This document shows positions 22,123 through 25,291 of a stretch of DNA of 43,071 nucleotides, piece after piece. Numbering within the stretch: position 1 is the stretch's first letter; each line of letters starts with the position of its first letter. Source of the stretch: Flavobacteriales bacterium (GTDB taxonomy: Bacteria > Bacteroidota > Bacteroidia > Flavobacteriales > BACL11); assembly GCA_014381465.1 (NCBI GenBank), contig JACNLP010000038.1, positions 1 to 43,071 on the forward strand, read 5' to 3'. Position numbers and translations under genes: made by a program. The notes under the pieces were generated by a model. The model saw nothing but the letters and a program-made list of their open reading frames with translations, ran no database searches and was not told the origin of the DNA.

Positions 22123-22264
22123 ATTCTTCACAAAAAATGAAATACAATTACAAAATCGACTAAATTAGAAAATAGTCCAAAAATAATTGCAATAAAATTT
22201 TGTAAAAAGTCTGCAAAAAAAAATAATAATATCAGAAGTGGATTATTGCTTTTTTTCAATTTAC

Positions 22265-22277
22265 TATGCTTAGCATA
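22265..22277. promoter_or_regulatory. 13-bp palindrome, possible operator
   Basis: TATGCT-T-AGCATA is a perfect inverted repeat with one central base. It ends 20 bases before the -7 box at 22298-22305, so it overlaps the expected -33 position. A dimeric regulator bound here would block or control the promoter of the accessory cluster. No regulator gene is next to it. Confidence 0.45.
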
Positions 22278-22297
22278 ACACTTTATTTCTTATGATT

Positions 22298-22305
22298 TAT
22301 TTTTG
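22298..22305 (+). promoter_or_regulatory. -7 promoter box of the accessory cluster
   Basis: TATTTTTG is a perfect TAnnTTTG box 17 bases before the ATG at 22323. The five downstream genes are closely spaced and probably share this promoter. Confidence 0.55.
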
Positions 22306-22322
22306 CCCCATTACTAATCAAC

Positions 22323-22826
22323 ATGAAAAAGAAATTAATATTTTTTATTATTCAATTAGCATTTACTAATGTGAGTTATGCTCAGCCTGTATTTTCTGTT
22401 GATGCTGGAATTACAACAGAATATGGAGCTAATTTACTTGCAATGAATTATTCAGTCCCTATTACTAAAAATGTAAGTTGGCATACTACTTTAGGAGTTC
22501 CATCCTATTCAATAGGGTTCACTAATAATGTTAAAAATAATAGATTTACTCTTGTTGTAAACGATTCTTATTCGCAAGATTGGAGATTAAGAATTGCTTA
22601 TTCAAAAGAAAAAAGTATTGCAGAGAAACTGACCCTTGTTTATGGGGTACGACTAATACTAGCAGAGTTTAGTTATGGAACAAGATCATATGCTGATGAA
22701 AATGGGAATGAACTTCCTGAAGTTACTGGGTGGGAAACAACACATTTTATGAACACTGTTGGGTAAACTGATGTTCTTGATTTTTTACCCTTTCCATTTG
22801 TAAGTGTGCGATATAAAATCAATTAA
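22323..22826 (+). pseudogene. Small outer-membrane beta-barrel-like protein, cut by in-frame TAA
   Basis: The ATG at 22323 opens a frame of 147 residues up to a TAA at 22764-22766. An N-terminal signal peptide (MKKKLIFFIIQLAFTNVSYA) is followed by alternating polar and aromatic strands typical of outer-membrane barrels. Reading on in the same frame past the TAA gives 19 more residues, TDVLDFLPFPFVSVRYKIN, then TAA at 22824-22826. That tail, ending in an aromatic-rich strand, looks just like the closing beta strand of a Bacteroidota barrel protein. The extended end also lies only 2 bases before the desaturase start. So one nonsense mutation (or a base-call error) has probably removed the last strand. 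The family is not recognised. Confidence 0.7.
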
Positions 22827-22828
22827 AG

Positions 22829-23908
22829 ATGAATAACTCTCAACAAATATTATTTAAAAGAGATACGGACGGCTTTACTAAGGATTTAAATGCTGAAGTG
22901 AAGAATAGCATCTCCAAAGATAGAATAGAAAGGGCTGTTGCTTTCTTATGGCTTAAGTTGTTCTTTTATTTAAGTTTTTTCATAGGTTCAATTATTGTTT
23001 TGTATCAGAATCAATATGGAAATCATTTTGGGTATTTATTGATGAACTATGTAGCTATTGGAACAAGTGGTATTTTACTTGCTTTTAATAGTGCACATGA
23101 TGCTTGTCATCAAACTTTTAGTAAAAAGAAATGGGCTAATGATTTGATTTTCTACTTTACATTTAATATGCAGGGAACAAGTGCTAGATTATGGAGGATA
23201 AGGCATTTGGCTTCTCATCATTTATTTTCTAATGTTGATGGCTGTGATGCTGATGTTGATGATAATCCATTGTTAAGATTTTCCCCAAATCATAAAAAGA
23301 AATCATTTATGAAATACCAGCATTTTTATGCTCCTATTTTGTATTCTCTTTATTTTATTGTTTGGATTTATGCTAAGGATTTTGTCTATCTCACTAAAAA
23401 GAATTTAGCGAATCTTAAAAATCAAGATTACCCTTTTTGGTATACACTTGAGTTAGTGGTTTGGAAGCTTTTTTATGTTTCTTATATGATTGTACTGCCT
23501 TATTATTTATTGGATTTTAGTCTTTCAGAAATATTATGGGCATATTTACTGATGATAGTAGTAGGGTCAAATATTTTTATTTATACTTTGGTTACAACAC
23601 ATTTTACTTTGGAAACCGATTTTCCTTCTGCAAATGAAAAAGGGGAGTTGCCTTATAGTTTTGCTGAGCACCAACTTATAGTTTCTATGGATTACCATCC
23701 AACAAATCCGCTTGCAACCTTTTTATTTGGAGGATTTAATTCTCATGCTGCTCATCATTTGTTTCCAACCTTACCTCATACCATTTATCCAAAAGTAACT
23801 CCAATTATTGTTGATAAAGCTAATGAATACAACTATAAATATAATGTACTAACTTTGGTTGGTGCAATATCATCTCATTTTAAATACTTAAAAAAACTAG
23901 GACAATGA
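22829..23908 (+). CDS. Membrane fatty-acid desaturase (front-end/acyl-lipid type)
   Basis: 359 residues with four or more membrane segments. The three histidine boxes of di-iron membrane desaturases are present: HDACH (90-94), HLASHH (126-131) and HAAHH (306-310). The box spacing resembles the delta-5/delta-6 acyl-lipid desaturases, but there is no fused cytochrome b5 domain. It would introduce double bonds into membrane lipid acyl chains. Regiospecificity cannot be read from sequence. It lies 2 bases after the extended end of the upstream barrel-like gene and overlaps the next gene by four bases (ATGA). Confidence 0.9.
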   Translation: MNNSQQILFKRDTDGFTKDLNAEVKNSISKDRIERAVAFLWLKLFFYLSFFIGSIIVLYQNQYGNHFGYLLMNYVAIGTSGILLAFNSAHDACHQTFSKKKWANDLIFYFTFNMQGTSARLWRIRHLASHHLFSNVDGCDADVDDNPLLRFSPNHKKKSFMKYQHFYAPILYSLYFIVWIYAKDFVYLTKKNLANLKNQDYPFWYTLELVVWKLFYVSYMIVLPYYLLDFSLSEILWAYLLMIVVGSNIFIYTLVTTHFTLETDFPSANEKGELPYSFAEHQLIVSMDYHPTNPLATFLFGGFNSHAAHHLFPTLPHTIYPKVTPIIVDKANEYNYKYNVLTLVGAISSHFKYLKKLGQ

Positions 23909-24261
23909 AAAAACTATTTTTACTATTAATCACACTAACCACATTTATGAATGTGAGTTATGCTTCTTTTCCTGTAACGCAAGATGTGAAAACAGAGATT
24001 GTTTATGAAAATACTGAAATACCAACTTATGGTAATAGGCAATCTATTTGGGGTGTTTTATCTTTTATTTTTGCTGTTGTTGGTGGACTTTTATATTTTA
24101 CACCTTATGGTTTATCTGGATGGATGCTAGCTATATGTGCGATAGTTTTTGGTGCTATTGGTTTTAAAGACAAACCAAAAGGTTTAGCAATAGCGGGTTT
24201 TATTGTTGGAATATTAGAAGTTTTTATGCCAATAATAATATGGGTATTCTTGCTAGCTTAG
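23905..24261 (+). CDS. Small exported/membrane protein with DUF4190-like C-terminus (leader-family gene A)
   Basis: 118 residues. A signal peptide (MKKLFLLLITLTTFMNVSYA) is followed by SFPVTQ and a short linker. The second half (about 46-118) has two membrane segments around a GFKDKPKGLAIAGFIVGILEV loop, which resembles the DUF4190 two-helix domain. The signal peptide and the following SFP are nearly the same, in protein and DNA, as in the two genes just downstream, while the rest is unrelated to them. It overlaps the desaturase stop by four bases. Function unknown. Confidence 0.8.
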   Translation: MKKLFLLLITLTTFMNVSYASFPVTQDVKTEIVYENTEIPTYGNRQSIWGVLSFIFAVVGGLLYFTPYGLSGWMLAICAIVFGAIGFKDKPKGLAIAGFIVGILEVFMPIIIWVFLLA

Positions 24262-24291
24262 TTGTGGTATAATAATATAATTCAAATTATT

Positions 24292-24795
24292 ATGAAAAAA
24301 ATAATACTAATCTTAATAGCGCTAACTACATTTATAAATGTGAGTTATGCTTCTTTCCCTATGGCGTCTATTGTTGATACCCCAACAACAGATACAATAT
24401 TAAATATTGAAACCATAGAACAATACCATTTAAGAATGCAAAAAATGGGTTTTGATTTAAGTAGTTGTAAATGTGAAAGTTGTAGAAGTGGGATGCGCCC
24501 ATTAGTTCGTAACTCTAAAGGGGAACTTGTGAAAGTTGATAACGGTAGTGAATCCAATGCTAAAGCAATGTACCTCTTGGCTGGATTAATTTTGTTAGGT
24601 GTTATTATTTGGGGTTTCATTGGTCTTACTCGTGCATATAATTGTGTTGATAATAGATCTGATTGTCCACAGTCATCAGGAGAAAAACCTAAGAGTGGGG
24701 CTCCTGTTGGACTCTTGTTAGGTTCTGCTCTTATAGTAATTAGTCTAGTAATTGCTATAAAAGCGCGTATTATGCAGCTTAAAAACAAAAATTAA
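24292..24795 (+). CDS. Small exported membrane protein with CxCxxC module (leader-family gene B)
   Basis: 167 residues from the ATG at 24292; an upstream in-frame start at 24262 would add ten residues before the signal peptide, so I reject it. Order: signal peptide (MKKIILILIALTTFINVSYA), SFP, a polar stretch, the motif KMGFDLSSCKCESCR with Cys59, Cys61 and Cys64, a membrane segment (about 91-111), a hydrophilic loop with two more cysteines, and a second membrane segment (about 134-156). The cysteine motif is shared with the next gene (20 of 28 aligned residues identical from QYH to PL). Three such cysteines could bind a metal or form disulfides. No known family recognised. Confidence 0.75.
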   Translation: MKKIILILIALTTFINVSYASFPMASIVDTPTTDTILNIETIEQYHLRMQKMGFDLSSCKCESCRSGMRPLVRNSKGELVKVDNGSESNAKAMYLLAGLILLGVIIWGFIGLTRAYNCVDNRSDCPQSSGEKPKSGAPVGLLLGSALIVISLVIAIKARIMQLKNKN

Positions 24796-24796
24796 A

Positions 24797-25159
24797 ATGA
24801 AAAAACTAATACTAATCTTAATAACGCTAACTACATTTATGAATGTAAGTTATGCATCTTTTCCTCTTGCTGATACTTTGGAAGTAAAACAGGATACTGT
24901 GCAAACAGAAGAAATCAAACAATATCACTCTAGTCTTATGAAAATGGGTGTTGATTTGAGTTCTTGTAAATGCGAAAGTTGTAGGAAAGGTATAGCTCCA
25001 TTAACAAACAATAGAGAAGTAAATAAACCACCAAATCAATTTAAAAGAATATGGTTGCCAATAATAATAACAATGACTATTTTAGGAGCCATACTTGTAA
25101 TTTTACTTTTTAGATGGTCGGAGAATTTCGATAAATCTGGAGGGATTGGAGTTGGATAA
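24797..25159 (+). CDS. Small exported membrane protein with CxCxxC module (leader-family gene C)
   Basis: 120 residues. Signal peptide MKKLILILITLTTFMNVSYA, then SFP, a Thr/Gln-rich stretch, the motif KMGVDLSSCKCESCR (Cys57, Cys59, Cys62), a linker and one membrane segment (about 86-106, IWLPIIITMTILGAILVILLF), ending in SGGIGVG. It begins 1 base after gene B and is plainly its paralogue over the first 70 residues. About 63 of the first 69 bases match gene B, against 59 with gene A. Function unknown. It converges with groEL. Confidence 0.8.
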   Translation: MKKLILILITLTTFMNVSYASFPLADTLEVKQDTVQTEEIKQYHSSLMKMGVDLSSCKCESCRKGIAPLTNNREVNKPPNQFKRIWLPIIITMTILGAILVILLFRWSENFDKSGGIGVG

Positions 25160-25187
25160 AAAAATCCCCACCAAACTGGCAGGGATT
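25158..25187 (-). terminator. Terminator of the groES-groEL operon
   Basis: Read on the minus strand: AATCCC, an inner CC-AGTTT-GG, GGGATT, then a run of seven T. It lies about 105 bases after the groEL stop. On the plus strand the same hairpin lacks a T run, so it serves the minus strand. Confidence 0.75.
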
Positions 25188-25210
25188 ATGTTCTGTTGAG
25201 CTTTTCGAGC

Positions 25211-25253
25211 CATCTCAAAAATGAGATCCTTCAACTATCGTTCAGGATGACAG
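25211..25253. repeat. Intergenic hairpin resembling a dispersed repeat
   Basis: The segment contains CATCTCA-AAA-ATGAGATC (stem ATCTCA/TGAGAT) followed by GATCCTTCAACTATCG and TTCAGGATGAC (stem ATCCT/AGGAT with inner AAC/GTT). Its reverse complement begins TGTCATCCTGAACG, which closely resembles the TCATyCTGAGCG-type intergenic repeat seen in many bacterial genomes. Only one copy is present in this window, so the repeat status rests on that resemblance. Confidence 0.5.
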
Positions 25254-25291
25254 ATGTTTCTATACTGTGGGTCTAACAACCACTAACTAAT

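Follow-up and report, generated by a model that had tools for sequence, protein, structure and literature searches.

Why do three neighbouring genes begin with nearly the same export tag, conserved even at the DNA level, when the proteins behind the tag differ? The question is raised by genes A, B and C in the window, by which we mean the whole 43,071-nucleotide stretch that was analysed (contig JACNLP010000038.1 of a Flavobacteriales bacterium, assembly GCA_014381465.1; the host genome, G000). Our answer, which we consider quite likely to be correct, is that the genes belong to a set of small exported membrane proteins that is shuffled horizontally and regulated jointly, housed in a slot between ftsZ and groEL; the leader would serve both as export signal and as recombination block. 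The tag would recur on different neighbours because such genes of the host family are mix-and-match cassettes that are swapped between genomes.

The array and its shared leader

The features of the locus are listed below; a slash marks the predicted cleavage site, and G007, G046 and G048 are other genomes of the host family.

22262..22280, + strand: palindrome resembling an operator, TACTATGC-TTA-GCATAaca, with which the array begins; conserved ahead of the first gene in 13 aligned arrays
22298..22305, + strand: TAnnTTTG box (TATTTTTG), at a fixed spacing from the palindrome and invariant in the 13 arrays
22323..22766, + strand: outer-membrane-like gene, with a plausibly related leader ending in NVSYA/Q; in-frame TAA at 22764-22766
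22829..23908, + strand: fatty acid desaturase (PF00487), a sporadic cassette of the slot, in a block common with G046 (90.9% nucleotide identity)
23905..23973, + strand: leader of gene A, signal peptide, A/SFP; identity to G046 switches at the leader start
23974..24261, + strand: body of gene A, a membrane pair that resembles DUF4190 but scores under the Pfam cut-off
24292..24360, + strand: leader of gene B
24361..24465, + strand: stalk of gene B up to CxCxxC, 63/99 nucleotides identical to G048_2
24466..24795, + strand: CKCESC motif (24466-24483) and membrane tail of gene B, 318/327 nucleotides identical to G048_2
24797..24865, + strand: leader of gene C, 67/69 nucleotides identical to a G048 leader that precedes an unrelated body
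24866..25159, + strand: body of gene C, with stalk, CKCESC (24965-24982) and a single membrane tail
25160..25187, no strand assigned: terminator-like conserved sequence on the groEL side of the slot, also in the G007 slot, which is without leader genes

The first-pass annotation had described three tandem genes with one leader and different bodies, and this description holds. The open reading frames are present in the window, with starts at 23905, 24292 and 24797, and the leader peptides are MKKLFLLLITLTTFMNVSYASFP in A, MKKIILILIALTTFINVSYASFP in B and MKKLILILITLTTFMNVSYASFP in C. Over 69 bases, the leaders are identical at 57 (A-B), 59 (A-C) and 63 (B-C) positions, a range slightly wider than the 59-63 first given; control leaders from the same window (GldN, GldK, LptE and PorP) match those of A, B and C at 25-35 of the 69. 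Past SFP, only 72-82 of 240 ungapped bases are alike, which is near chance. The body of A has no detectable similarity to those of B and C, which have a short CxCxxC module in common and, as had been noted, different tails. The name 'DUF4190-like' proposed for A is to be read loosely: A scores 12.5 bits against DUF4190 (PF13828; E 0.13), below the gathering cut-off of 35, so membership of the family is not supported. A fourth leader gene in the host genome, on contig C11, does exceed this cut-off, at 39.6 bits. Pfam gave no TM2 (PF05154) match for A, B or C. The desaturase gene at 22829 belongs to PF00487 (111.4 bits vs a cut-off of 29.7), and its stop overlaps the start of gene A (ATGA).

The leader of the outer-membrane-like gene at 22323 matches the leaders of A, B and C at 41-43 of 69 bases, and the kinship that the first-pass annotation had suggested is therefore plausible. 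That the gene is intact is less so. Its frame runs on past the TAA to 22826 and there matches the end of a homologue in G014, and the stop at 22764-22766 takes away the last strand found in that homologue. This suggests that the open reading frame is probably broken by the in-frame TAA, or else carries an assembly error. On the other side of the array, between C and groEL, repeat-like DNA (CCTTCAACTATCGTTCAGGATGACAG and its neighbours) occupies 25190-25290; part of it aligns with G048 downstream of the C gene of that genome.

Genes of this kind are not confined to the window. Protein B has matches in 33 of the 52 genomes of the host family, and 78 genes with an N-terminal leader ending in [A]SFP were gathered from fetched host-family loci. 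Sorted by BLASTP, their bodies fall into about 20 unrelated membrane-body groups, the largest of which chains several types via common parts. Among the types are CxCxxC modules with no fewer than three different tails, bodies resembling DUF4190, and one type in which DUF4190 follows a soluble module. TM2 is a further body, as leader gene G014_5 matches it at 94.9 bits, and several types have no Pfam match. A single tail type is found on proteins that have the CxCxxC stalk (G044_5, G050_3) and on others that lack it (G011_1, G013_1). The proteins are about 75-215 residues long, of which the leader takes up 23. Thus, 'three genes' is correct for the locus and too narrow in scope: as judged from these comparisons, A, B and C represent, at this locus, a lineage-specific multigene family whose products are small exported membrane proteins. 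The leader is nevertheless not a standard signal peptide used genome-wide, the outcome that the first-pass annotation had named as fatal to its reading. Four leader genes were found in the host genome (A, B, C and the one on contig C11), and at most about nine in any genome.

Of 18 family genomes, 11 matched the YASFP-leader pattern; 128 genomes from the other families in the order gave no match, and neither did control patterns. A profile search of 394 genomes of the order recovered 21 host-family genomes plus one weak, spurious internal match elsewhere. Across the class, the leader pattern gave one in-frame relative outside the family, a TM2-like protein in G428, and the remaining matches were out of frame or did not lie in leaders. 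Because this TM2-like protein with a similar leader comes from a different family in the class, the SFP leader may predate the host family.

All 78 leaders combine a basic MKK start, an L/I-rich core and a YA/S site, which are the sequence features of a type I signal peptide, and we infer that the leader is a Sec/signal-peptidase-I signal. Most exported Bacteroidetes proteins have a glutamine directly after the cleavage site (Q-rule; PMC5837995). The outer-membrane-like protein follows this rule, likewise GldN and PorP; A, B and C expose a serine after predicted cleavage (A/SFP) and do not. After export through Sec and cleavage, the SFP end and the CxCxxC stalk would lie on the periplasmic side, with the tail embedded in the inner membrane. 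This topology is drawn from hydrophobicity because the structure model of gene B is weak (pLDDT 67, pTM 0.31); the low-confidence model contains a leader helix, a short helix ahead of the cysteines and two long helices. The CxCxxC motif may bind metal or form a disulfide, which is a guess. A profile search of the PDB returned only weak CopA matches (E 0.37-0.43), which were not used.

Exchange of bodies in the ftsZ-groEL slot

To survey the slot, groEL was located in the family and its 3' side taken, giving 42 genomes anchored by ftsZ and/or groEL. The interval is nearly empty in 19 of these (the two genes lie 72-293 bases apart) and holds leader genes in 15. Content differs even within the host genus: the slot of G009 holds three leader genes whose bodies are unrelated, that of G008 a TM2 type and that of G007 none. 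The slot of G047 contains a broken B. The desaturase is present in 5 of the 52 family genomes, always within this slot, and the slots of G023 and G024 contain it without leader genes. The first-pass annotation had proposed an envelope module with the desaturase at its centre. The desaturase does occupy the same slot and is served by the same operator-promoter; however, leader genes are common and the desaturase is rare, which means that neither requires the other as a partner.

Some further observations were made on these sites. The TM2-type leader gene in the G008 slot (L090), read by eye, is frame-shifted at a poly-A run after the ATG, which could be decay, an assembly error or phase variation. 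The slot also takes larger genes, with an aminotransferase-like open reading frame in G013 (L086) and G028 (L107) and CoA-transferase-like frames in G013 (L086), all named by eye. G048 and G041 (L071, L126) have a second variable leader-gene site, between a glutaminyl cyclase-like gene and a 697-residue peptidase (names again by eye), and the leader genes there differ. No recombinase-like open reading frame was seen by eye among those of the window or of the listed slots. Searches of viral contigs and phages gave no match for C, and plasmids gave none for B.

The age of the genes differs sharply from that of their surroundings. Between the host genome and G048, codon identity at unchanged residues is 0.43-0.57 in the flanking genes, 0.91 in the body of B and 0.94 in the body of C. 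Between the host genome and G046, it is 0.85 in the desaturase and 0.50-0.54 in ftsA, ftsZ and groEL. As the flanks are near saturation, these genes are a far younger shared property than the surrounding chromosome, and we take B, C and the desaturase to have moved between genera. The comparison is between species and between MAGs; no event within one population was seen.

Identity also switches abruptly along the DNA. Gene B (G000_3) and G048_2 are identical at 63 of 99 stalk nucleotides and, from CKCESC onward, at 318 of 327 (Fisher 9e-18). The tail tree pairs the two genes (100/100), whereas the stalk tree places G048_2 inside a 19-row group that lacks G000_3 (95/98); on the short stalk of 99 columns an AU test did not reject a clade of the two (p 0.17). 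The block in common with G048 spans the tail of B and the next leader (67 of 69 bases) and ends just after SFP, because the next body is DUF4190-like in G048 and C in the window. The block in common with G046 covers the desaturase and drops at the leader of A. The first-pass annotation had suggested recent duplication with body exchange: the switch points at leaders and at CxCxxC bear out the exchange, while local duplication does not suffice, as cassettes appear to have passed between genera. Broken members (B of G047, the gene at 22323 and other open reading frames with stops) would fit a rapid turnover.

Slot leaders compared between genera have a codon identity at shared residues of 0.709, where saturation would give 0.444; for non-slot leaders, too, the value exceeds saturation (0.603 vs 0.460). 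Codons 2-8 and 16-23 are the best-conserved parts; rare codons such as CTA return at fixed positions, and rare ACG codons are conserved as well. Leader codon identity is 0.72-0.73 whether the bodies are similar or unrelated and whether the genes lie within or between genomes, and no link of a leader to its own or to the upstream body was found beyond single cases. This independence fits free shuffling and also fits selection on the leader DNA. All four gametes occur at 133 of 171 pairs of leader sites, which is consistent with recombination but equally with repeated mutation. We infer that the leader acts as a homology block for recombination; selection on the leader, the other option named in the first-pass annotation, may play a part as well. 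A test for concerted evolution inside individual genomes gave no support for it, since leaders are no more alike within than between genomes (permutation p 0.26).

A shared operator-promoter and a candidate regulator

The 110 bases ahead of the first gene align well across 13 arrays. Their palindrome, in its best form TACTATGC-NNN-GCATAGTA, has an exact core match in 30 of 52 family genomes, with no control matches, and the full composite promoter, with one mismatch allowed, is present in 13 of 18 family genomes and in 0 of 128 others. The TAnnTTTG box corresponds to the -7 consensus known from Bacteroidetes; its start lies at +35 in 46 cases, and any other offset occurs at most 4 times. The placing of the palindrome, centred near -40, suggests an activator.

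The host genome has three promoters of this type, one before the A/B/C array and two before exported outer-membrane-like proteins; the operator-promoter TACTATGCNNAGCATA, with TAnnTTTG at +35, was read at 22262-22305 of the window and at C33:3863 and C78:11363 of the host genome. Other targets in the family are Cupin_8 and Asp/Asn hydroxylases, a lipocalin-like lipoprotein and a nucleotide-sugar/steroid-type dehydrogenase. The operator-promoter appears to define a small family-specific regulon of exported proteins, hydroxylases, the desaturase and leader genes. In G047 (L244:2278-3922), the same promoter, with the same spacing, precedes a histidine kinase and a GerE-domain response regulator. 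The nearest solved relatives of this regulator are VraR (the closest), EvgA and NarL, and DesR (PDB 4ldz) was also matched. Because regulator and operator are linked in this single genome, the NarL/LuxR-type pair is a candidate regulator of the set; the proposed binding target is TACTATGCTTAGCATAGTA.

A model for the leader genes and its relation to known systems

A gene of this set begins with the leader (MKK…YA/SFP), may continue with a short CxCxxC stalk and ends in one of many different membrane tails. We propose that cells take up DNA from relatives and that ordinary homologous recombination in leaders or CxCxxC segments then places new bodies in the right reading frame, downstream of a promoter that already works. 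The palindrome near -40 would be bound by a dimeric activator, perhaps a response regulator of the NarL/LuxR type, which would switch the array on together with other envelope genes, leading to membrane remodelling. We regard this as the most likely job of the set, with moderate confidence at best, because the co-regulated genes concern the envelope and oxygen-dependent modification. A stronger form of the model is possible but tentative: an open cassette system, in which any leader-bearing membrane body that arrives is spliced behind a two-component-controlled promoter, giving a combinatorial, rapidly changing inner-membrane set without a dedicated recombinase.

The main rival reading is selection on the leader sequence. 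If selection acted on leader DNA or peptide alone, for translation start, signal recognition or an RNA role, the bodies could have been joined by rare ancient fusions with no ongoing exchange. The equal leader identity for similar and unrelated bodies, within and between genomes, would follow, as would the conservation of codons 2-8 and 16-23 and the above-saturation identity of non-slot leaders. Selection alone leaves unexplained, however, why bodies keep 91-94% codon identity across genera with saturated flanks, and why identity switches abruptly inside B and at the end of the C leader; nor is the conservation of rare CTA and ACG codons expected from translation efficiency. We consider it rather unlikely as the whole explanation. 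Plain local duplication, with A, B and C as recent tandem copies whose bodies diverged fast, accounts for the tandem order and the related stalks of B and C. It is contradicted by the near-identical bodies of B and C in another genus and by the three other bodies at the same spot in G009, of the same genus, and it would require a body of A that has lost all detectable similarity to B and C; we give it very little credence.

A set for immunity, competition or phage exposure, in which enemies select variable bodies as in polymorphic toxin/immunity repertoires, would match the high turnover, the conserved head with variable tails and the differing islands at one site. Yet PADLOC found no toxin, secretion or defence match and PHROGs gave one weak match only; the arrays have no partner genes in common except the sporadic desaturase, and co-regulation with the desaturase and hydroxylases points instead to membrane remodelling. 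This purpose seems improbable to us. Most of the genomes are MAGs with many contigs, and chimeric contigs from assembly or binning could in principle have made apparent mosaics. But the pattern is found in about 15 genomes, including the two-contig G048 (99% complete), and both flanks mostly lie on one contig, so an artefact is hardly to be expected.

Surface antigens, toxins and adhesins are familiar cases of modular shuffling. In the present case, shuffling concerns tiny signal-peptide-bearing membrane proteins of bacteria with reduced genomes, and the common piece is a leader of 69 bases. If our reading is true, a short coding homology turns a gap in the chromosome into a place where envelope genes can be acquired ready for expression, and a concrete operator with a candidate regulator provides a handle on the purpose of the proteins. 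DesK/DesR consists of a kinase and a NarL/LuxR-type response regulator. The set resembles it in that a regulator of this type and a kinase are linked, through the promoter sequence found in the single genome G047, with a promoter that a desaturase uses as well; it differs in that the closest solved relative of the G047 regulator is VraR.

The array has an anatomy of known kinds, yet in open-licence papers we found no published description of the leader, of such arrays or of the palindrome. The vpma, vsp and vsa loci of Mycoplasma combine a conserved 5' region and signal-peptide part with variable mature bodies and one active promoter (PMC2268961), and the array is like them in its conserved start and leader, its variable bodies and its single promoter. 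In vpma and vsa, a dedicated recombinase of the Xer1/HvsR type frequently inverts DNA, and a single gene is expressed at any time (PMC2268961), whereas no recombinase open reading frame was seen in the slot of the array, its genes are co-directional and operon-like, and exchange is between species. Rhs proteins have a conserved N-terminal part and decoupled variable C-termini, attributed to homologous recombination (PMC2935791). Rhs proteins deliver toxins, are very large and have orphan tips; in the array, the conserved head is an export leader of 23 residues, and whole short genes follow one another. In replacement flexible genomic islands of aquatic bacteria, different envelope-related genes occupy the same site, and homologous recombination has been proposed (PMC4033161); those islands are large and bounded by flanking homology, whereas the homology blocks of the array repeat at every gene start. 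Nif11/NHLP and prochlorosin precursors also join a conserved leader to a hypervariable downstream part, and their leaders guide peptide-modifying enzymes (PMC2887384, PMC10783134). By contrast, the leader of the array is Sec-like, its bodies are membrane proteins and no modification enzyme is found in the slot. With no recombinase open reading frame seen and no toxin or defence match, and with tiny membrane proteins exchanged between genera, the array therefore stands outside the vpma/vsa, Rhs and replacement-island families.
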